From Saururus chinensis (lineage: Eukaryota > Streptophyta > Magnoliopsida > Piperales > Saururaceae), in NCBI GenBank assembly GCA_035235625.1, contig CP141146.1, positions 21,322,501 to 21,386,500 of the forward strand: a stretch of DNA of 64,000 bases. The letters are read 5' to 3'. Shown here in pieces: positions 48,830 to 62,400 of the stretch; the first letter of the stretch is position 1, and the number at the start of each line of letters is the position of its first letter. The notes beneath the pieces were generated by a model. The model did not search any database. It had not been told where the DNA came from and was given only the letters and a program-made list of their open reading frames with translations. Position numbers and translations under genes: made by a program.

Positions 48830-49300
48830 AAGGTTGCATGCAACCCTTCTAAACAATGTTAATTTTTGTAACAAAATGTTGCTAATATTTTTACTGACAT
48901 TTCTAATACGTTGCTAATTCCTTCGTATGATTTCTATACATATGTAGCAACACTTCTAAACATTGTTAGTTATTATCGAAAAACGTTACTAATATTTTTA
49001 GCGACGTTTCTAAAGCGTCGCTAAATCATTCTTACGATTTCCTTACATATATAGCAACGCTTTTAAATGTCATTAATTGTTATCGAAAAATAAATATCTA
49101 ACCATGCAACATATAATGCTTTTATAGAACATCGTTGTTAACTATAATAGTGATATTTTGTACAAACATCACAAATACTTTTAAGGATGCGACCTTTAGC
49201 AACATTTGTATAAAGCGTCGCTAAAAGTTTTAGCAATGTTTTAAATACTTTCAGCAACGCTTTTGAAACGTCGCTAAAACCAAATATTTTTGTAGTGTAA
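48830..49300. mobile_element. CACTA-like element with TSB leader sequence inside
   Basis: Dense repeats of the form TTTCTAAAGCGTCGCTAA end in TTTTTGTAGTG at about 49290-49300. Bases about 49085-49119 are identical to the TSB leader at 49787-49820. The 60 bp after the end (49301-49360) are nearly identical to 45514-45575 after the other CACTA-like element. Confidence 0.5.
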
Positions 49301-49721: not shown

Positions 49722-51310
49722 GACTTACTGTTTTTTTTTTGTGTATGTTTGTGAAGAAAGAGAGAGAGAGATGGTGTTGTTGTTGGGAAAAATAAATATC
49801 TAACCATGCAACATATAATGCACAGATGGAGAGGCATTGATAAATACATACATTTGTAGTGTCGTGGACGATTACTCATGAACATGCCCAAAAAACGTGG
49901 AACGTACATGTGGCTTTAGAGGGGATGGATGACTCGGGTATTTTGTGTTGTTCTTGTGCTGCTTCAAGTGGACACAGTTCGAAGGACCGTCACATTCCTT
50001 TGGCTGGTCGCATCAAGGGGCTGCTTGTATTTCCACTAATGAGTTTCGTATTTGTGTAATTTGGTCCCCAGGTTCAAATAATTTAGATGTTGATATAAAA
50101 GTTAGGTCTTGTGAAAGCAAAAGATAGGATGTCAATAATCTACTAATGCCATGGTTAGCGATTTACTCATTTTCTAGTTCTTTATACTAGTATTTAGATT
50201 TATTTTTGAAATTATATCTCACCTGCTTTTGAATTAAAATATTTCTTCCACTTTTTATAACTTTTATTCAAATTTATAAAAATCTTAATCAATATAATAA
50301 TGTTGTTGAATTAATATAATAATATTAATTAATTGATATGGTAATATTAATGAATCCAAAAGAACCTAACCCTATTGAATCCAAAAAAAAAAAACTACAA
50401 CAAAATAGATTATTAGTGACGTACAGACTCGGGTCGCAAATACTAATTTGCAACATAAGGTGACTAGTGCACTAAAAATAACCTTTTAGCAATTTTTTAG
50501 TGTCGCTAATAATAATTAGTAAAGTTTTATTAAACATCACTAATAATTATTAGTGACATTTTAATATATGTCATAAATAAAATTAGCATCGTTTTATATA
50601 TGTTACTAATAAATTTTATTATAGAGATATTGTATAGTTAGCATTGCTAATAATAAAAAGCGACTTTTCAATAAGTCTTCTACAAATCATACATATTAGA
50701 GCATCGTTTTATAGAAAACTGCTAATTTATTTATTAGTGACATTTATTTTGTGTTGCTAATAAAAAAATTATTAAAAAAATTCATAGCTGAATATAGACA
50801 TTTTTTAAATCTACACTAAATAGAAAAAAATTACGGTCATAATTTTATTCATAGCTAAGTTTGAAGTCACCAATCCATTAAAAAAAATTGCATGTTCATT
50901 ATTTTTCATAAAAAAAAATCCATACACATTAACTTCATGTCTAAAATACGTTATTTTTTAAATTACAGTCATATGCAATCGCTTCACTTCTAACAAGATG
51001 ACACCATATTAAAGAAGATGGTGATCATTAACTGTTTGATACTAGACCAAAATTTACTCCATTCAAAATTTAGTAATTTGATGATCAACCTAAGAAAATT
51101 AGCATAACAAATGCACACGCCAAAGCTTAGCAGGACTGTGCTCTACCAAGCATAGGTTTCTCTTAGGATTAACCATGTTCATACTTATAGGTATTGTCTA
51201 GGTTGAAGCTACCTAGTTTTAGCTATAATATTATAACAACACAACAAAACAAAAGTTACATGAGAAGTTCACTTTAGATATGTATCCCATAATCTCGAGA
51301 AATTACTTGA
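49722..51310 (-). repeat. Upstream unit of TSB-4 (fragment F)
   Basis: Direct repeat of about 35102-36730: leader, TATA, promoter, CACTA-like segment (50390-50780) and distal flank. The G-box block is missing around 50155. Similarity ends near 51310, where the Mutator-like element begins. Confidence 0.65.
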
Positions 51311-52178
51311 AGATTTTTTTCCATATTGCGTGGCCAAAGAATGACATATTCCATATTCCCTAGATTTTAAACGAAAATACCATAAAACCTGGAATAACAC
51401 GATATAAGCTAAAAATTAGACTAAAATACTCCTAACCAGAGGTAGGGTTTCATATCTGTTAAACCCTCACAAAGTCACATACATTGGCAGACAACTTCAG
51501 ACACTCGCGATTCCTCATAGTGAAAAACTCTGTTCCGATTGAAAACTCACTTCCGATTGGAAAGTACTCTAATTGACCACTGTTTACGCGGCATGTGAGA
51601 AGATTTTGCAACCTATCTGACCAAACATCGAAGATTAGGGTTTTTCTGTTCTGGAATGAGTTTGAGTTTGCGAAGAACGAGTTTTGGAACGAGGGTTTCT
51701 CCTAAGCTGAGTTTTGAAACTGTATGCCCCAAAGCTGGTTCTTCTTTGTAGCGCGGTTCGGGTTTGCGGCAATCCCTGAAAAGCAATGGCCGAATGAGTG
51801 TTTAATCCAACTCGAGAACAACAGCGAAGGTTTCGTGGTAAGGCATTTTAGATATTTGTATGCACAAATTTTGATTTAGCGTGTATTCGAACACACGACA
51901 TAGGCAGTCGAATCAAACTATCGTTGGGTAAGAAAGACGATACGTCATATATCGTGTGCTCAATAAGACGTTGGAAACACGATGTTCAACCATAATGATG
52001 TTGTGTATGCGAGTTCCTCTTAGCGTAGGTTCGATCACATGATAAATATACTTATCGTATCAATAGAAGTTAGTTAGATAATGTGAATCGACATGGCTAT
52101 TGATTATGGTCACAACCTATTGTTGATTGACATATATTTATCCAATTTTTTAGACGTAAAGTTAGAGTATTACATCAA

Positions 52179-55100
52179 ATGGCGGAGTCAGTGAAGGTTG
52201 CAGAAGAGAAGATGAAGAGAATCTATGGGAGAAGACCGGGTCTCGGAATGAATAGTTTCCCCACTGGACTGCGTCTATCAAAAGACCTTGTAGATTCACG
52301 TCCGGGATGCAAGGCCATATTGGTGGAGACTAGGTTCTACCTAGTATATGATTGCGAGTCCATCATCATCTTTAGGCCGCTGATGGATGTACTCATTGGT
52401 GATTGTTGGGACGACTCACTGGAGGTCTTCAACATAAGGGGCTGCCCTTACTGTGGCTGAAGTGGCTATGATCAAGGGTTTGAGTGGAAAAGGGAACCTG
52501 TGTAAATTGGAAAGTAGCGAGGGGAAGGCTTCCCAAGGCAAGGAGAAATTCTACAAGAAGTTCTTCCAAGGGAAGCGGCCGGAGAAGATAGGACTTGAAG
52601 AATTGTTGAAAGAAGTGGTTGCGGAAACAAGGACTCTTTCAGACAAGGACTTAGCATGGTTGGCGACTGTGCACATGGGTGTCCTCATGTTATTCACACA
52701 GAGCAACAAAGCTGTATCCCTAGCTCTGTGTGATTACTTAGATGACATGTCGGTCGTGGGGAGCTACAATTGGGCAGGCGCTGTACATGATATGCTGATG
52801 AGAGGCATATCGGCAGCCCATCGGAACATCATGAGCAAACAAGACGAGCATTCCGCCATGGCCAGAATTCTCGTAGGGGCTTCATTAGTGCTCCAGGTAA
52901 CACTCGTATGTGTTATACTACGCAAATGCTAATAGCGTATTGATAATGACACGATATGTGTTACAGAGATGAATATCACTATATCGATCACATGATATGA
53001 ACTAAATCGTGTTATCGGACATATGCCATTTAACATGCACGGAGACATATCGTGTTCTTAATAACACAACTAAGGATAATATTGTGGATAGGACATTAGA
53101 TGATCGGAATGTATCGTGTTACCAGAAACACGATGTGGATTCTAGCGTGTTATCCGTAACACGACTAATTTGTTATATAAAGATACTAACCATTTACACT
53201 AATGACTATATTCTTTTGTATTGTCCGCCAGGTATGGTTTTATGAGCATAGTTCCATATGGGCTCCCGGTGGTCCTCCATGCAGCCTGAGGTGCAAGAGG
53301 TGGACCGGATTTTTCCAACTTTTGAGCGACGTGGAGAAGGCTGATAAACTTGACCCAGTCGACGAAAAGGGGAGGAAGAAGATTCTAGCTCATCACTGGA
53401 TGAGGATGTGGTACGAGGATGTCTTCATGAGGCTGAAGCCAGACTTGCACATTGTTATGCGCATCACACCAATTGCCGAAGAGGCACACTTGATGGATGG
53501 CCAAAGGGTGACCCCGAAAGCTAAGAAGGCGAGTACGCAGACTTTCCAAACAATCAGACCCGCCCACGCCCCCCACAGCGAGATGTCGGGGCATGTACAT
53601 TCGGGCCATGACGTCATTGAATCATTCGTGATGCCAATTGATGTCATGACGGGAATTTGTGAAGTTGTTTTGGAGAAAGCTATTCTCTACGGTGAGTGGA
53701 GATGGAACACGAAGCGAGTTGCAGCTGCACTCTAGCGTGTTAAGAACGATCTAGAGGTGGCAACTAGCCTCATAGAACAAATGCAACCCCTTGAGGAACC
53801 AGAGACAAAACAACCACCTAAACCCACTCAGTCGGTGGTCACCCAAGCATCAACCCCTCCTCCTAGAACCGAAGGATCACCGTCAGTTCGTTTAAAGGAA
53901 AGAGCTTCAAAATCAAGAGAAGCTCGCCAACCATCTACCCCCAAAGATCAACCAGTACATGTCCCTCAGCCGGTGGAAGAGGGATTCATTTTGAGTAAGT
54001 ACGACAGTTTAATGTATCGTGTTTCATTAGGGGATCTTCGTGTAGTCGAGAACACGATAAGAGATCATGTCATTGAGTAAGAAAGACGATGTTGGTATTA
54101 TCATGTCATCGAGCTTATGATCATTGAAGCAACATTTACTTATGAAAACCATCTCTGCGTGGTCATGGGATCGTGAGCACGATTAGTCCTCTTTTCATTT
54201 TTCCAACAATACAATATGCATTTTCATCGTGTTTGGTAAAAGACGACTGGGATGGATATCGTTTGGTTACTAACACGATGGCTTACTTCTTAAATACAGA
54301 GAAACGACAGCCACAAGCTGCCAGCAAACCGAAGAAGAAGATTGGTTAGAAGTTGCAAAGGACCGTAATAACGAGATTTTTGATGAAAATAAATGTAGAA
54401 TTCATGGACACAACCATGGGACATCGTGCATCAACCACGAGATGTCGTGGAACCACCCCATGAGGTGGAAGAACAACCCCGGGAGGTAGAAGAACCAGAC
54501 CTTCAATGGGAGGTCGTGGCTCAAGTCTACGATGTGACGGAATAACCCCGTGAGGGATCCGCAGACCAACTGGAGATTTTGGAACAACCCTTGAAGGGAC
54601 CAGAAGCACCTCAATAAGCAAATAAAGGAGTAGTACACAAACAAGCAATAAAAATCAGAGTGAAGTGGAAAGCTGCTCTTGGCGCTCCCATCTTACCACC
54701 TGTGCAACGGAAGTCAAGGTCCACCGCAGTTGAACCACCTGCTCAAGTGAGGAGCTTGTGAAGAAAGTTTTAGCTCAGGTATCGAAGAAGCCAAAGCGTT
54801 TTAGCACCTACATTGATGAGAAGCTAGCAAAATGTGGACCCAAAGCCTAGCCTAGAAAGCCTGGTGACGAAGTACCTCTGGCATCGGTCCCTGGCCCAAG
54901 CATTATCCGTTAGGCACATACAAAGTCTCCCACCTAGGAACCAACAACCTCAATCGCAATTTCTAGTGAAGGCACTTTATTGGATACTCCTATAGTAGAT
55001 GCAGACGTAATGGAGAGTATCCACAATGTTGAAGATGTCAAAGTTGATACTGTGACTAAGATGAACAAGAAGGAGACAAGTCTGCTGCCAAAGGACTATC

Positions 55101-55740
55101 TTGACACAGAGTGGGTGTTCCACCTAGAGGTTCAGACAGATGCAGTTAAGGAAATTATCACGGAATTTATGTTGAACTCATACAAGTCGTGGCCCATAGA
55201 TATACTCCTCTACACCGACTACCTATCTCTGTTAAAGTAGGATTGCATAACAAATGAGGTAATATTGTTTCATTTCTCAAACATTTTAACCTCTATCATG
55301 TTATCAATCAAACGATTGAATAACTGACGTAGATTACAATTAATTAGTGTGTTATCGATTACACTACTTGTACATTCGTCGTGTTATCGTGAACACGATA
55401 TAATTGTTGAAGTAAAACTAGCGTGTTATTTTGTACATGACCTGTAAATGCTTCGTGTTATCATGTACACGATAAAATTACTTATCGTGTAAATGATGTC
55501 ATGATAGGTATAATATCATGTCATTACTAACATGTATGGTATTGTGTAGGTCATCGACATCTTCTTCCAACTTCTTTATGAACAAAATTTGATAAATCCA
55601 GGTAGGTATCCCAACTATTTTTTTGGCATGTTCGCTATTCAGCAACACTTTAACGTTGGCATGGCAGAAGGGCACGCGGAGAAGGAGGGCAAACTCTCTG
55701 GCATATTATTGAGAATGTGTTAATATTGATACATTGTTAT
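52179..55740 (+). pseudogene. MULE-borne plant-mobile-domain/DUF1985-like gene with Ulp1-like end
   Basis: The role in transposons is unproven. Exon 1 starts at the ATG at 52179; a one-base shift near 52444 moves the frame from DSLEVFNIRG to LTVAEVAMIKGLSGKG. The core SLALCDYLDDMSVVGSYNWA (near 52720) runs to ASLVLQ. An intron (about 52898-53231) follows, then VWFYEHSSIWAPGG, the layout of plant mobile/DUF1985 domains. A TAG at 53733 and a TAA near 54541 interrupt a Pro/Glu-rich linker. After an intron near 54060-54300, LLYTDYLSLLK, a TAG (55238) and an intron lead to VIDIFFQLLYEQNLI (about 55551), like the start of a C48 Ulp1 protease. The catalytic His-Asp-Cys part is absent. Domain naming is by eye; DUF1985 versus PMD is open. 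Confidence 0.55.
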
Positions 55741-55989
55741 CATGAAGTCGGGATCCATTGTGTGTTTGAACGTACGACCAATATTGAGATAGTGTTATAC
55801 GGGAAGACATCTTTCCATGGGAAAAAGATCGCGTTATACGGGAAGACACCTTTCCATGGATAATAATATATTCCTTTAAATTTCATTAATTCATTACATA
55901 CAACAAACTAATATTTACAAAAATTTATGAATACAAATAAAATAACATTATGAAGATAGTGAATCGTGCCCTCATCGGTTAAATTATGA

Positions 55990-57175
55990 AAGAACCTTCG
56001 CGACATTGATATTACACTGGGATAGTAAATCGCCCCCCGTCAGAGGCTGGTTAGGACCGTGCCACTGAAGGGGGACGAATTACCATATGGTGCAAAATCA
56101 ATCTCCCAAAGGCTCCGTCTTGGCACCAGCAATCAGTATGCGTGCGATCTCCATGCAAATTCACGGACCCATCAGTTCAATTGTGATGGAACCTTCGCGA
56201 CATTGAAATAATGCCTAGTAGTTAATCGCCCCCCTTCAGAGGCTGGTTAGGACCGTGCCACTGAAGGGGGACGAATAACCATCTGGCGTCATATCAATAT
56301 CCCAAAGGCTCTGTCTCGTGCTCTTCGCGAATTGGGTAAGCACAAAGGTCACTTAGATATATATAGGCAGGTTGCGAGGGATATGAATCATTAAATATTC
56401 CATATTTAGTGTAATTGGAAATGATTCATCGCGAATTGGTGATCTTAATTTAATTGAAATCCCAAAAATTGTGGTGACGCTTCGGGAATTAGGTTGTTAA
56501 ATTAATGCAATTGTCGTGTGTGCGATCTCACGAAATGACCCATATCGTGTAATGGATTACACGATATGAAAAAATAATCATTATCGCAGTCGTCAGCTCA
56601 TCAAACGGTTCTGGTAACTCATCGTGTGAATGTTAACACGATATTTACGAAAGTCGTGTGAAAACAAAATGCTAATGTGTTTATTGTCGTGTGGTCAGAA
56701 ACACGATTTGCAAACAGATCATGTTAAGGCATACACGCTTGAACAAGTATCATAACTTTACATTACCTACGCGATCAGTTGACTTGAGATCTCCTAGGAC
56801 AAACCATTCGAAACATTGGTATAACGCCTGGTGGCGTTCTTCCCCCTCCAGATGCAGGTGAGCTCCTTATCTGAAAGGGGGAAGATACACCATTAGGTGC
56901 AAAAGCAATCTCTGGAATAAACCGTCTCGGAGCCAAAAAGGAAAGCCAGAGATAAGTTGGCATGTGATCTCCTTGCAGAATCTCGGACGCATTAGTTCAA
57001 GAAAAGGGTGTCGTCTAGTGAATAGGGTGCAAATTCGACGGATCATTTGAGACATTGATATATCGCCATCAAGTGAAGCAAGTCTTCCATCAAATATAGG
57101 TGAGGACCGTATTTGATGGCGGGCTGATTCAATTGCCGCCACTACAACAATCTCCCGAATAACCCATCTCCGCGA
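55990..57175. repeat. Four diverged units (R1-R4), each with a hairpin
   Basis: Units share a leading GACATTGATAT-type phrase, then a hairpin, then GGTGCAAAATCAATCTC and CCGTCT-type phrases. Stem arms: R1 56034-56043 with 56065-56074; R2 56230-56239 with 56261-56270; R3 56838-56853 with 56869-56885; R4 57087-57096 with 57110-57119. R2 pairs CCCCCTTCAG with CTGAAGGGGG and R4 pairs CCATCAAATA with TATTTGATGG, around a GGTNAGGACC-like loop. On the minus strand the units also encode a similar broken peptide (FAPNGVSSPF in R3), so a coding origin is possible. Confidence 0.7.
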
Positions 57176-57179
57176 AGAA

Positions 57180-57181
<2 letters not shown>

Positions 57182-57230
<49 letters not shown>
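57182..57230. repeat. AT microsatellite
   Basis: About 24 AT dinucleotides between the R4 unit and the transposase gene. Confidence 0.95.
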
Positions 57231-57232
<2 letters not shown>

Positions 57233-57550
57233 CAGGGTGAAACGGCTACGAACTGTCAGGTAAATGAGGGTATTGATACTTCGGCAATCAGGTCAATATG
57301 ATCCTATCATTGTCATGGGTTTGGACATACGTTATTACTAATATCGTGTAAGCAACAAACACTCTTGATTGCAAAATTAATAATCAATTGATATTATCGT
57401 GTAATTAGCAACACATAACCCCTTTTGGTCGCGTTGTCGAATACACGATATACATATCCAGTTTACCCTATTTACATCATGTCATGTTTTTCGAAACACA
57501 TTACTTACATCTTCCATGTTGTTGATAACACGATGTACATACAAAAAATT

Positions 57551-58955
57551 TCAGCTGAAGAACAGGGATGGAAAAGGTAAGCCTGATTGATGCTCTCCTT
57601 CCTTATATCGTTTGTGTGCGCTATTATTCGACCTCCTTCGGTTTGTTGTAGGTACATCTGCCACATTGGGGGGCCCTCCTTGTGCGTTGGTACATCGTTT
57701 GCGGTTGTGACACAATTGACCGCATGTTCCACATTTTCGTGGGGCTTTGAGAGGTGGTTGTGACTCTATCTGATTTTTTCGTGGATTCCCCCGCTGCTTT
57801 TGAGGGATAGATGGGTTGAATGCAGGCATAAATTCACCTGGTGCCCACTGGTGCCGATCCTTCATTGGGTGTAAGGGCTCTCGATAGGTCACTTTATAAA
57901 TTTCAGTAGAGTACCATCTTTTGCAGTACTCAGACACATATAAGTGTCTATTATCAATTGCTGCGATTGCATGCTTACATGGTTGATCCAAATGTTGAAA
58001 CTTTCCACATGTGTAGGTACGATCAACCAGGTTTACCACATCCTGTGAAGAAAATATCGCGAGTAAGAGAGCATGATAAAGGAATTTATCGTGTTCTCGA
58101 TTACACAATGTGTCTTACAATCTTGTCGTAAGTCATATCTACTTGCATGTTCAAGGACAATAACGTGTGTAAACTAACACGATATGAAGCCCTAACGCAT
58201 AAACAAACACAAGCTATGGACATCACCGTATGAATGCAATGTACCTGGTGATATAGCGAGTTAACCTGGAATTCATATATTGACACATGCAATACAATCA
58301 CATTCCTTGCTTCTTCTCGCCTGATTTCTATGTGTTTTCGGGCAAATGGGGTTAACTCTTCCATCATATTATGTCCATCCATTTGACGTTTTTCAAATAA
58401 TGTTGTCGTGTGCTCCCTCGTGTGCTCAATTAAACGAGTTATAGGCATCGATCTGTCTTTTCTGAACATTGCATTTGCACTTTTAGACCTATTTGAGCTG
58501 AGTGTCCCATATCTTTTCCTTGGAAATGATACATTGGCCCAGTGCTTTGAACCTATCTTATTTAGTGAAGCATATGCTTCAGGATTATGTTCTTTAATGT
58601 TGTTCATTGTTTCATTGTACACATTCTGTCTGAACATTTCAGCTGCAACATGAAGCTAATTCTTTAGGTAGTTGTCCTTGAATCTGTCCAACATTTTTGC
58701 TTCCATGTAACGGATGCAATAATTGTGGTGTGTAGATGGGAAAAACTTCTTCACAGCATTTGCCAATCCCTTCTGTCTATCTGAAATGATTGTATCCAAC
58801 TCAGCTGGAGGATCAGAATATATATGATTTCTAAGCAATTCAAGAAACCAACACCAAGTTCTCAACCATTGCAAATGCAACGCACAACATATTATTGTTC
58901 CAGTCCAGTGCAGTTGTAACTTCCGGGAATTTTCTAAATTTCTGAAGTTGACCAC
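57551..58955 (-). pseudogene. MuDR-type MULE transposase, C-terminal part
   Basis: Cuts and inserts MULE DNA. Read on the minus strand: a WFLELLRNHI-like block, then TIISDRQKGLANAVKKFFP with a DDE-type Asp and HHNYCIRYMEAK (58760-58700). A TAG at 58656-58658 interrupts the frame before LHVAAEMF. Next are NPEAYASLNKIGSKHWANV and a basic stretch. An intron (58244 down to 58043, GT...AG) carries two of the palindromes. The last exon has a SWIM-like zinc finger (TYTCGKF...QPCKHAIAAI) and a CCHC knuckle CGTCGQLCHNRKRC near 57725. The first Asp and the N-terminus are lost at 58968. Confidence 0.85.
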
Positions 58956-58967
58956 ATGAAATTAGGG

Positions 58968-59430
58968 TGTTGGACCCCTTGACTTTCTTATAAGAATAAC
59001 TCGATCATTGGTTAGAACAAGTGGGTGAGACCTATATGGATGGAAAGTAGACAAAAAGAGTTTAGAAACTCCACCAAGAATGCGCAAATCGAAGTTCGGA
59101 TGAGGGAGATACGACCTTTCGAAGTTGACTATATTGCGTGAGACCCGTTTACCCGAATTGGACGTGTAAATTGGTCGTTTAAGCCATTTTATGGGCCCAA
59201 TTATTTTTTTGTGACAAAAATTAATAAAAAATAGGCCCAAGTAGCCTATTTAGCCCAACAACTAAGGGAATTAGGAACCCTAATCCCTATATTTATAAAA
59301 ACTTATTTAGGGCTCTAAAAGGGAGGGCTTTTGGGGAAGACCGATGGAGGAGAAACCGCCGATGAAATTTTCTTGCGAGGCTCTGGCGATGGTGGATCGA
59401 TGACAAACCGATAGTGGAGGTAGGATCTTG
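58968..59430 (+). repeat. Possible LTR start cutting the MULE
   Basis: It begins TGTTGGACC, like the Copia LTRs of this window, exactly where transposase homology stops. It contains a TATATTTATAAAAAC sequence near 59289 that could be a promoter, followed by AGGGAGGGC. The rest does not clearly match the other LTRs, so the family is uncertain. Confidence 0.4.
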
Positions 59431-62400
59431 TCTTAGACTTCAAGTTGAACTTATTAGTAGGGGTTTTGTTGATTAAATTTAAATGCACATAGTGTTTTAT
59501 GCAATTACTCCTTTGGTAGTTTTAATTAACCGTTACTATTGCAATGAATGTTTTGTAGAACATTGATTTTACTTCTGCCAATTGGTTCTTTCTTGGCGGA
59601 GGCCGGCCAAACTTAGGGCCAAGGTGGTCGGAGTCATCACTGAGCGGCAGACCGACTAGTCCCGGCCCTGCGTCCAGCCGAGGCGGCGATTTCAACAGCT
59701 AGTAGTAAACTGTTGTCAGAGAGATGGGAAAGGCTGAGCCTTTTAGGCTCTCAGCGGAGGAGAATTAGCCACCTCCACTGGTGGGCCCTACAGCTAGTGT
59801 TATGTTGGCAGCTACTGGTAGACGCACCCACATAGAGAGATCCAGATCCGCCATGGACCTGGGCGCCGCCAGGCGTAAGCATTGGTGAATGGGCTAGTGG
59901 TGGCGGATGTGCCTATGATGGAAAGCAGGACTCGTAGGGGTGGATGCGCAGTCCAGTCGCTGCCCACTGCCCTGCAGGCGTCTCCATGAGGAAGATGACC
60001 CACAGGCGGGTCAGCGAGTCTGGCCCGATTTTGGGCTGAACTGCTGACCCGGTCCAGGTTGGTTTTTTTATAAAAAAAAAAGAAGAATGTAAGGGGGATC
60101 GAACCGGGTCCGGTTCATAGGGGTATAAGTATCCAAAAACATTATAGAAAATTACTCATGCATCTAGAGAGGGGTGGGAGTGTCCTGACCAAATTTCAGC
60201 TCATGGAAAAATCCCAGAGACTATGAAATGACCCTTTTACCCCTTGTAGTAAAATTATTGTGTGTAAACTACTTACCCGACTTAGGGGCTCCGGTTCAGG
60301 GGCCTATGAGTTGATCTAAAACTTGGGAAAATTCTCAGTGAGAGTTTAATGGGTAAAATAATTATAGGACAAACGTTTTGATGAGGAAAAATCCCAATGA
60401 GTGGGTAATTGACCTTTTTGCCCCTAGGTTTAATCGTAAACTGTTAAGTAAACCTTGGTCAGTTCAAAAGGTTCACGACCCCGTCACATGTCAGAAAAAT
60501 TATAGAGAGTCCATGAAGTCTAGTAGTACCCTTGAGTTTAATTTTAGACCCATTGGATGTCAATAAGGCCTTAAAGAAAATAACAGAAATAACCCTTTGA
60601 GTGGACCTGCCCACATTCGTGTGAATGGAAGTGCGGGTCAGTTTGAGAGTGGAGCCTCCTAAGAGGATTATGACTTAAAAAAAATAAATGGGTAGTGAGA
60701 TAAACAAATGATCCAAGGGAGGGTAGCATACCCCATGTGGAGAATTACCCTAATGCCCTTAGGGGGTAGTATATTCTGTTTCTGCTAAAACGGATAATTT
60801 AGCAACCAAGTGTTAGGGTGCCCTAGAATTACGTTAAATGGCTTCAAAAGGAAGGGGTGTGACTAGTAAGAGACATGAAGACCTTGACAGGTCATAATGA
60901 CATGGAAAACAAGGGGAATAACCCTAATTCTCAAGGTTTAAGGCAACGTATTACACATGTCTGCAACCGAGTACATCAATCGACTAGAGTGTTATATATG
61001 TAACTCGCGGGATGCGTTAAAGTTGTTTACACTCTCGGGCTTGAACTACTGAGCCCTAGCCCTACAAATGAGTGCAACAGGCCTTTATTCATTATTTATG
61101 CACTGGTGTGAATGCATGTTATTTATGTTGATTATGCTAATGCATGCTTTTATTTTTTATGCTTTAATTTATATCGGTAACTTAAAATTAATGAAGTTTA
61201 ATCAAGAGACATGGGTTGCCGTTGGATTAGGGGGAGAACATCTAATCAAAATAAAGACTAAAATACCCTCAATAGGGTTTGAGACCTATTCATGGAGTGA
61301 ACGGGGCCCTAACATAGAATTTTACCTTGGTTAATGAACCGAGAGTGGTTACGGGATGTTCTCTGAGTCATAGCTCAGTGAATGAGCTATTTCTTGGGCC
61401 AATTCAAAAGGTGAAGAGGACCCAAACGGTTGAGCGTATACTGGACTAGATGGAATTAATCTAGTCTAAGTTCAGAGGTTTGAGGGAGTTAATGGTCATA
61501 ATGACCTGAGGCTTCTATGGATACATTAGTAATGTCTTATAAGACATTTTCTCCCAGAGTTGAGATGGTGGAGATTGCAATATGCTTCTTCATTGCCACG
61601 ATGGTTTGGGTATTGATAAGAGAGTCTTTACTGCAAATCTTGTAAGGACTCTCATTTCTAAACTAGTTTTCGTTTCATTTTAATTATCGGTTATTGCGTG
61701 GCTAACTCATTTTCTTATTAATTCAGTGGTTTCGTGAATAAATAGTGTTTCTTATAGTTTTAATCAAAATCAACTTCACAATTATTGGTTTTAAGTGATT
61801 TTGAGTCAAATCTGAATTTTTGGGATTTTTTTGGTTTTTCACTAATTTTCCAAAAATTAGGCTTTGGCGGGACCCCTTGTGGGCCCCACAGTCAAATTTT
61901 AGGTTTTTGGACCAAACTAACCCAGACATCAACACAAGCCTCTACAAAAATTTTCATAATTTTCTCAGGTTTAATTAGTGCTCAAATAGCTAAAATACCC
62001 ATTTTTAGCCTATTTTTCTATTCATACCCCACTAATTACCTACACACACCCCAAACCCTACTATAAATAGAATGACCTGAGCCATTTCTATTTTTGGAAT
62101 AGGCTGGAAAAGGGAGGTTAGGCCTAATTCCCCAATTAGGCCCGGATTAGAAGGGGTTTAAGGTAAGTCTCTTCTAATTAAGCCTTAAACCCTAAATTTC
62201 CTCCTAATCCTTTCATATCTATCATTTCCCCTTTGTTTTGATTCATTTTTAAACATCAAAACTACTTATTTGCGCCTTTACTTCAAACCCTATATCTAAA
62301 AATTCAATTTTTATGTTCAACAAGCCCTAGATCTAAGTTTTTCATTAGGGTTTTCTATGTTAAATCGGTTTTAATGGAGTTTAATTTAAACTCTATGTCT

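Follow-up and report, generated by a model that had tools for sequence, protein, structure and literature searches.

A 22-bp palindrome, ATCGTGT-N8-ACACGAT, is repeated in the noncoding DNA of a high-copy TIR-MULE family, one copy of which lies in the window (the whole 64-kb stretch of DNA analysed here). The best reading of these repeats, with a probability of about 0.72, is an anti-silencing system of the VANC type whose site is dimeric and private to the family, and in which the palindrome would most likely be bound by the element's own DUF1985-Ulp1 protein. The assignment of this protein to the palindrome was made by analogy and elimination. The concept itself is already published, with PMC5735166, PMC10398659 and PMC13317346 (all in excerpt) as precedent; the fixed-spacer palindrome and the presence of two private motifs in one genome appear to be new in the literature consulted. 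As the accessible part of the review PMC13317346 already covers Ulp1-carrying VANC systems, only the palindromic form of such a system would be new.

The palindrome and its host element

A spacer scan of the window from 0 to 30 bp returned 20 sites at spacer 8 (up to two mismatches over the 14 half-site positions), against 0-5 at each other spacer. All 20 lie within 51311-58916 and none in the remaining 56.4 kb, while 200 dinucleotide shuffles of the window gave a mean of 0.15 and a maximum of 2 sites. The exact half-site ATCGTGT occurs 14 times, 12 of them at 51951-58088. The initial annotation had correctly described the palindrome as concentrated in the MULE and rare elsewhere in the 64 kb, and both introns that it had named hold sites (Table 1). 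Its variable spacer of 2-19 nucleotides was wrong, and the long-spacer pairs at 51951-51983 and 54016-54058 overlap the spacer-8 sites at 51951 and 54037.

The same spacer dominates genome-wide. In the genome, 516 Mb on 11 contigs and probably that of a plant to judge from its DUF1985/PMD genes, the exact core was counted 2061 times with spacer 8, against 88 times for spacers 0-7 pooled and 286 times for spacers 9-16 pooled. Reversed-pattern controls (43, 304 and 298, respectively) are imperfectly matched because they lack the CpG that is present in each half-site, and a better control is to compare the spacers with one another. The extended form of the palindrome reads TAT-ATCGTGT-TATCGATA-ACACGAT-ATA.

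The window copy of the MULE is defective, as its right part, including the transposase 5' end and the right TIR, is missing. Exon 1 of the DUF1985 gene is frameshifted near 52440, and exon 2 carries an in-frame stop at 53733. In relatives, which were selected for open frames, the exon 1 frame is open in 13 of 13, and the intron 1 region holds 1-5 sites each in 13 of 13 fetched exon-intron stretches. In inverted orientation, the left TIR also matches the right end of the relative C4 (81 bp, 86%), and direct homology to the left end of a second relative, C11, begins at 51317. The broken copy, the left TIR near 51311, the Ulp1-like part, the genome-wide family and the helical phasing are additions to the initial annotation.

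Table 1. Parts of the MULE copy in the window and the palindromes that they contain.
Feature	Position	Strand	Basis
MULE copy, as far as homologous to relatives	51311..58916		blastn against C11 and C4
Left terminal inverted repeat	51311..51395	+	inverted alignment to C11 right TIR, 85 bp, 88%
Sites 51878, 51920 (3 mismatches), 51951, upstream of DUF1985 gene	51878..51972		motif scan
DUF1985 gene exon 1	52180..52896	+	Pfam DUF1985 1.2e-5, below curated cut-off
Intron 1, palindromes 52934, 53049, 53113, 53144	52897..53231	+	motif scan
DUF1985 gene exon 2	53232..53993	+	ORFs; boundaries by splice-consensus inspection and relatives
Intron 2, palindromes 54037, 54226, 54258	53994..54299	+	motif scan; limits by inspection
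DUF1985 gene exon 3, degenerate	54300..55258	+	homology to relatives
Intron 3, palindromes 55295, 55378, 55420 (3 mismatches), 55452, 55484	55259..55549	+	limits by inspection
Exon 4 start (Ulp1-like part), truncated	55550..55714	+	homology to relatives
Intergenic palindromes 56513 (3 mismatches), 56544, 56621, 56686, 56718	56513..56739		motif scan
Palindromes 57396 (3 mismatches), 57428, 57513 (3 mismatches), beyond transposase 3' end	57396..57534		motif scan
Transposase last exon, SWIM zinc finger	57554..58042	-	Pfam SWIM 5.7e-5
Transposase intron, palindromes 58088, 58162	58043..58244	-	motif scan
Transposase exon, MULE domain, 5' side truncated	58245..58916	-	Pfam MULE 1.4e-7; homology stops at 58916

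Counted in the window copy, with exon and intron limits modelled by inspection, none of the 20 sites is exonic, though exons make up 3764 of the 7606 bp; at three mismatches one of 26 sites, the weak one at 58417, falls in the transposase exon. As in VANC-type systems, the motif is dense in the element's own noncoding DNA and absent from coding DNA.

C11 keeps both ends, with 84-bp TIRs of 89% identity and the 9-bp TSD TATTTTTTC on both sides; this TSD and the MULE transposase domain (1e-19) identify it as a Mutator-like element. Its transposase, on the - strand, also has a MuDR-type DNA-binding domain (DBD_Tnp_Mut, 3.8e-11). Facing it on the + strand is a DUF1985-homologous gene with an Ulp1-like Peptidase_C48 domain (9.3e-7) and, judged from the sequence, this arrangement is the VANC/KI-MULE layout. 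All 26 palindromes at this locus are inside the element, and 2.6 kb of flanks contain none.

Palindromes were found in 29 of 29 transposase-side loci (the window's own excluded) and in 13 of 13 DUF1985-side loci, counts that are not independent because the copies have common ancestry. All ten motif-anchored loci that were cut out align to the window MULE, one of them over just ~105 bp, and three diverged loci hold seven further sites in stretches with no alignment to either C11 or C4. By majority consensus, the non-CpG columns of the half-sites are more conserved than other noncoding columns, both on the transposase side (0.867 vs 0.762, 11 consensus sites) and in intron 1 of the DUF1985 gene (0.963 vs 0.900, 4 consensus sites). 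The spacer columns show some conservation too (0.805 by the same measure), which counts against the VANC reading. Pairwise conservation tests were rejected as evidence in favour of the majority-consensus version, because picking motif-matching sites in a reference copy by itself inflates identity.

Adjacent palindromes tend toward spacings that are multiples of ~10.6 bp, therefore their dyads lie mostly on one face of the helix. The dyad distances are mostly 31-32, 41-43, 53-56, 63-66, 73-75 and 82-86 bp, and a period scan from 8 to 14 bp peaks at 10.5-10.7 bp with a phase near 0. Phasing is strong in the window alone (R 0.84, n 17; null p 0.00085 from its 10 distinct distances) and weaker in C11 and C4 taken singly (R 0.49 and 0.45 at 10.5 bp, slightly higher at 11). 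When each distance is counted once, R is 0.33; this value and the weaker phasing of C11 and C4 count against the VANC reading. Everted ACACGA/TCGTGT pairs at the off-phase gaps of 15-16 number 32 genome-wide, against 41 in the control. Helical periodicity of VANC motif copies has reportedly been described by Sasaki (2022), and the peak observed here is what would be expected of such copies, less so in C11 and C4 alone.

The DUF1985-Ulp1 gene and a second motif

The DUF1985 part, towards the start, and the C48 part, towards the end, probably belong to one gene, as suggested by strand, order and homology. Against a Pfam cut-off of 35.1 bits, DUF1985 scores 25.8 bits in the window copy and 24.0-34.6 bits in six relatives scanned singly, which counts against the VANC reading, and other family members score above the cut-off. 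Among the matches listed, 42 of 149 DUF1985 matches have one of the 150 transposase matches within 15 kb (random mean 1.3), and all 42 pairs are convergent. A protein database search with the DUF1985 piece from the window gave no homologue at E <= 0.001 among 60 candidates, a PDB sequence search gave no credible relative (best E 0.028), and an AlphaFold2 model of the piece alone reached a pLDDT of 44. A DUF1985-type protein beside a MULE transposase, here with DUF1985 and MULE/SWIM domains, is characteristic of VANC-type systems. What such a system would predict at the sequence level was borne out, namely a DUF1985 gene within the MULE (joined in one relative by an Ulp1-like part), a noncoding motif and conserved half-sites, and the interpretation given in the initial annotation is thereby partly supported. 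Equal density elsewhere and absence from relatives, outcomes that the initial annotation had named as adverse, were not found. Three of three DUF1985 loci outside the window family lack the palindrome.

One of these three outside loci carries a motif of its own, a 16-bp direct repeat that has 299 matches genome-wide, against 0 in the control, and is located upstream of other DUF1985 genes. The first 100 of the 299 places form 36 clusters, of which 16 have a listed DUF1985 match within 3 kb (random 0.05) and 0 are near a listed DUF1985 match of the window family. Likewise, pairs of the 16-bp motif number 0 in 57 window-family loci. Different VANC families have different motifs, and the palindrome and the 16-bp repeat differ in the same way. 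It is conceivable, at slightly under even odds, that two or more separate VANC-type anti-silencing systems operate in the same genome, each with a private address and a geometry of its own: in a TIR-MULE family, a dimeric palindrome set at whole helical turns, and in a different DUF1985 group, a direct repeat of 16 bp (1.5 turns). In that case, the way in which VANC-type proteins recognise DNA would have changed between a dimeric and a serial mode, and the CpG of each half-site would make binding sensitive to the very methylation that the protein should remove.

Proposed mechanism and competing explanations

In the proposed system, one dimer would bind each palindrome, with one unit on each half-site. 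Several dimers could sit side by side along one helix face, because the dyads recur mostly at the distances listed above. Once bound along introns and intergenic DNA, the protein would remove methylation from motif-bearing copies or exclude it from them, by analogy with Arabidopsis VANC21 and VANC6. We infer the binding protein, the dimeric binding and the anti-silencing effect.

The palindromes might instead be internal sites that the transposase binds for transposition or autoregulation, much as TnpA has its sites in CACTA elements. Motif and transposase gene occur together in these elements, the C11 transposase has a DNA-binding domain, and a lone half-site just inside the left TIR (51397) would fit binding by the transposase and counts against the VANC reading. 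We nevertheless consider this unlikely, since no full palindrome (up to four mismatches) lies within 100 bp of either C11 end, its outermost sites (up to two mismatches) are ~1.66 kb from the left and ~0.92 kb from the right end, and the window palindromes occupy introns of both genes. Moreover, the motif varies with the DUF1985 group, although, in a comparison that covered the DUF1985 genes of the second group, it may vary with the transposase as well.

Binding by a host transcription factor, such as one of the NAC class, whose sites the element gathered to drive its genes, is rather improbable. The half-sites contain ACACG/CGTGT cores, and ACACG motifs are on record for ZmNAC20 (PMC12899871, in excerpt), yet the NAC VNS palindrome is given as C(G/T)T-N7-A(A/C)G (PMC6309453, in excerpt), whereas the gap from CGT to ACG is 12 here. 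Introns and the 3' intergenic DNA hold palindromes too, the motif-anchored loci lead back to this MULE, and other DUF1985 genes of the genome have an unrelated motif (16 of 36 clusters paired).

All copies are related, and Arabidopsis VANC targets spread as tandem repeats (PMC5735166, in excerpt), so that the repeats could be neutral by-products of tandem or inverted duplication that were then inherited by the copies. This is very improbable, as the spacer stays at 8 while the sites are variably spaced, mostly in steps of whole helical turns, the half-sites exceed other noncoding columns in conservation, and the seven further sites of the diverged loci lie in DNA with no alignment to C11 or C4.

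An Rfam scan of 51000-59500 gave no match at gathering scores; two of four intergenic stem-loops, compared in relatives, had 57-60% paired cells against 34-48% in slid controls, in a poor alignment. A role as RNA hairpins in splicing, termination or siRNA production would suit the location in introns and 3' DNA but is scarcely credible, as the palindrome is fixed in sequence and spacer, not merely complementary, and helical phasing would be a property of DNA.

The VANC-type reading matters beyond this element. Proteins of the VANC type are natural tools for stripping DNA methylation from selected sequences, and the question of how they choose and change their targets could be approached here. 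With about two thousand exact cores, fixed spacing and phasing, the palindrome is a clear and testable candidate target site beyond the published cases consulted, and DUF1985 genes with an unrelated motif in the same genome are a built-in specificity control. Both the code between protein and DNA and the switch from one address to another would become directly testable.

Comparison with known systems

In the En-Spm system, the TE protein TnpA binds many short subterminal sites in its own CACTA element and is linked to demethylation. The MULE family likewise has many short sites within the element and a candidate TE-encoded binder, but the sites are internal, the element is a MULE, and the ends of C11 carry no full palindrome. 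KI-MULEs and KIU were reportedly described by Hoen (2006). The abstract of a published study is also said to address the gain and loss of DUF1985, DUF287 and Ulp1, together with motif sequence, density and helical periodicity.

As in KI-MULEs and KIU (PMC13317346, PMC2528002, both in excerpt), the Ulp1 gene is reversed relative to mudrA, with the Ulp1-like C48 domain of C11 opposite the transposase. Unlike Arabidopsis KI-MULEs, which are non-TIR, C11 has 84-bp TIRs; ULP in TIR-MULEs has been reported for melon and grapevine (PMC2528002, in excerpt). The palindrome is a further difference, as the accessible parts of PMC13317346 and PMC2528002 mention none for KI-MULEs. According to the same portion of the review, Ulp1-carrying VANC systems are traced to eudicots, and Ulp1-carrying VANDALs recognise motifs of their own kind (PMC13317346).

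The closest precedent for the proposed function are the VANC proteins and target motifs of Arabidopsis VANDAL21 and VANDAL6 (Hosaka 2017; PMC5735166, in excerpt). The motifs published there, YAGTATTAY and AGTTGTCC/AC, are short, often occur as tandem repeats, and are not described as palindromic in the accessible text of two papers. Here, in contrast, the motif, known from sequence alone, is a 22-bp fixed-spacer palindrome with CpG in both half-sites. The TIRs are clear as well, whereas those of VANDALs are degenerate (PMC10398659, in excerpt) or lacking, a difference that counts against the VANC reading. What the MULE family shares with VANDAL21 and VANDAL6 is a MULE-encoded DUF1985 protein and a short motif that is repeated in the introns and noncoding DNA of its own family and differs from one family to another.

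Spacing and distribution of the palindrome

The window was scanned for ATCGTGT/ACACGAT pairs with every spacer from 0 to 30, allowing up to two mismatches over the 14 half-site positions. A spacer of 8 bp gave 20 sites, any other single spacer 0–5, and the variable spacer of 2–19 nt proposed in the initial annotation thus gives way to one dominant length. All 20 sites lie within 51311–58916, the span of a MULE, and none in the remainder of the window, which bears out the claim that the motif is almost absent elsewhere in the 64 kb; 200 dinucleotide shuffles of the window held 0.15 sites on average and at most 2. At three mismatches 26 of 28 sites fall within the MULE (shuffle mean 2.0). The described noncoding placement likewise held in the window copy, where exon placement was counted: none of the 20 dyads, and 1 of 26 at up to three mismatches, is exonic, with modelled exons (limits set by inspection from splice consensus and relatives) taking up 3764 of 7606 bp.

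Throughout the genome (516 Mb, 11 contigs, the window being on contig 7), the core TCGTGT-N8-ACACGA occurs 2061 times and the pattern read backwards 43 times. Pooled spacers of 0–7 give 88 occurrences (reversed control 304) and those of 9–16 give 286 (298); because the reversed controls lack CpG, setting one spacer length against another is the fairer test. The loci around the first ten listed core sites all align to the window MULE, one of them (L008) over only ~105 bp, and in seven the site itself lies within aligned DNA. In the exceptions, L004, L005 and L008, the aligned parts show ~70–75% DNA identity, and DNA aligning to neither of the relatives on contigs 11 and 4 (C11 and C4) holds 3, 2 and 2 sites, respectively, besides the one used for selection. 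Judging from these extra sites, the motif seems to persist longer than the sequence around it.

Relatives, on which the initial annotation had made its reading depend, carry the palindrome throughout: 29/29 on the transposase side (2–12 sites each, from the best 30 of 150 matches, the thirtieth being the window) and 13/13 on the DUF1985 side (1–5 sites each, in loci chosen for open frames).

The element family and its copy in the window

The C11 relative has both ends. It measures 11.37 kb, with 84-bp TIRs at 89% identity, and is bordered on each side by TATTTTTTC, a 9-bp TSD; all 26 of its palindromes are internal, with none in 2.6 kb of flanks. Its DUF1985 exon is divided between frames, and a Pfam scan of one piece gave no match. 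DUF1985 scores 24.0–34.6 bits in six open-frame relatives, under the Pfam cut-off of 35.1, and other family members in the genome search exceed it, for example C11:18131971 at 44.4 bits (the same gene as C11:18131854). The Ulp1-like frame of C11 (L041:4992-5570, plus strand) has, by eye and in this single copy, Asn (WYNPL) where the catalytic Asp is expected, and the His, Gln and Cys contexts appear retained; the fold may be catalytically dead.

Domains of the C11 relative and other features of the window
Feature	Position	Strand	Evidence and context
C11 transposase, DBD_Tnp_Mut		minus	Pfam 3.8e-11
C11 transposase, MULE domain		minus	Pfam 1e-19
C11 transposase, SWIM		minus	16 bits, below cut-off
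C11 Ulp1-like C48 domain		plus	9.3e-7; located downstream of a stretch homologous to the DUF1985 exons of the window
Four stem-loops	56023-56090, 56219-56286, 56825-56895, 57060-57135		RNA folding; between the two convergent genes
Tandem duplication of 107 nt (copies 79% alike) and a 30-nt inverted repeat that overlaps it	48840-49053 and 48996-49279		left of the MULE

The window copy is defective. Its DUF1985 gene has a frameshift near 52440 and a stop at 53733, the Ulp1-like part is missing beyond 55714, and the 5' part of the transposase and the right TIR are missing beyond 58916. The genome holds at least 150 transposase matches (150 scored of 2182 candidates) and at least 150 DUF1985 exon matches (150 of 1834). 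Among the listed matches, 42 of 149 for DUF1985 have one of the 150 for the transposase within 15 kb (random mean 1.3, maximum 5), and the pairs are convergent in 42/42.

The four intergenic stem-loops (−27 to −36 kcal/mol as RNA, z −4.1 to −5.6), the two leftmost of which belong to a 98-nt direct repeat, are possibly 3'-end or terminator structures. The repeats to the left of the MULE could represent a further short element.

Consensus, conservation and helical phasing

A consensus of 258 distinct sites (277 with flanks) from 42 sequences (161.9 kb, including ten loci picked by the motif itself and some that overlap) reads TAT-ATCGTGT-TATCGATA-ACACGAT-ATA, palindromic over its full length, with weak spacer and outer bases. 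Spacer 8 accounts for 278 sites in these sequences, followed by 0 (38), 9 (30) and 10 (27). Conservation was computed per column on majority consensus sequences, with non-CpG and CpG columns kept apart. Non-CpG half-site columns reach 0.867 against 0.762 for other noncoding columns on the transposase side (30 rows including the window's own, 11 consensus sites; matched by 1/2000 random masks), and 0.963 against 0.900 in DUF1985 intron 1 (16 rows, 4 consensus sites; 0/2000). CpG half-site columns show a slight excess as well (0.732 vs 0.683 and 0.836 vs 0.801), and spacer columns are intermediate (0.805 and 0.906).

Everted half-sites peak at gaps of 9–10 (63 and 155) and direct ones at 24–25 (52 and 145), which matches the 31–32 bp step between adjacent palindromes. 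Distances between neighbours cluster at 31–32, 41–43, 53–56, 63–66, 73–75 and 82–86 bp, and a period scan over 8–14 bp has its maximum at 10.5–10.7 bp, with a phase near 0. R is 0.72 for 359 distances of at least 22 bp, 0.65 for those of at least 40 bp, and 0.33 with each of 54 distances used once. The window alone gives 0.84 (n=17 distances), the cleaner figure because distances across copies share ancestry, and its ten distinct distances differ from random ones (p 0.00085). C11 (R 0.49 at 10.5 bp, 0.57 at 11; n=35) and C4 (0.45 and 0.48; n=24) alone are weaker than the window.

A VANC-type reading and its precedents

The anatomy of the family fits a VANC-type system. From the VANC-like reading first put forward, the plus-strand DUF1985 gene in a MULE, the motif in the element's own noncoding DNA and, in the loci sampled, its restriction to the family stand; which protein binds it is proposed partly by analogy. 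A DUF1985 protein encoded by the element would recognise the motif wherever it recurs in noncoding DNA of the protein's own family, and silencing would be lifted from those copies. The palindrome with its fixed spacer points to two protein units binding as a dimer, and steps of whole turns point to adjacent dimers that would meet on a single helix face. Work by Sasaki from 2022 is said to describe VANC motifs with helical periodicity.

The DUF1985 protein is the candidate binder because of this analogy, because the terminal ends of C11 lack a full palindrome, and because another motif lies beside other DUF1985 genes. A single half-site, at 51397, is found just inside the left TIR of the window copy. 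Three DUF1985 loci that show no similarity to the window MULE in blastn (L058–L060, 22 kb) have no palindrome at up to three mismatches. L060 (DUF1985 1.8e-13, C48 5.8e-6) carries the 16-bp direct repeat TGGAAAACTATAAAAC upstream of its DUF1985 gene (L060 1-671). The genome has 137 + 162 occurrences of the pair GAAAACTATA-N6-GAAAACTATA and 0 of its reversed form. Grouping the first 100 listed places yields 36 clusters. For 16 of them a listed DUF1985 match is no more than 3 kb away (random mean 0.05) and for 20 there is none nearby, the DUF1985 list being 150 scored of 957 candidates; none of the 36 is near a listed window-family DUF1985 match. Of the 52 sites close to a listed DUF1985 match, 51 are on its strand and upstream of it. 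The 57 window-family loci (181 kb) hold no GAAAACTATA pair and no single GAAAACTATAA, of which the window has one copy.

Some listed places of the TGGAAAACTATAAAAC motif are inverted ~3–21 kb off (e.g. C5:8923348), resembling the opposite end of an element. L058 (C8:21678500-21688499) has a DUF1985 gene that also gives a weak match of Ulp1-like type, near a frame resembling cytochrome P450 by eye; four listed DUF1985 matches have the same score (41.1 bits), which suggests recent near-identical copies.

The VANC-type concept is known, and the palindromic form appears to be a new variant. An open-licence literature search found no palindromic VANC motif, one in the key eudicot study being possible, and the available text of two Arabidopsis VANC papers has no occurrence of 'palindrom' (PMC5735166, PMC10398659). 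As far as the available parts of the sources go, VANC and RdDM have opposite effects on noncoding regions (PMC10398659), VANC proteins that carry Ulp1 (KIU) act upon elements of their own kind, and Ulp1 is conserved in eudicots (PMC13317346); in KI-MULEs ULP genes face mudrA, and melon and grapevine have ULP in TIR-MULEs as well (PMC2528002). The likeness to the VANC systems of Arabidopsis lies in a DUF1985 protein and a short motif in the element's own noncoding DNA. The motifs differ: in the accessible portion of PMC5735166, VANC21 binds YAGTATTAY and VANC6 targets contain AGTTGTCC/AC, whereas the window family has a palindrome with a fixed spacer.
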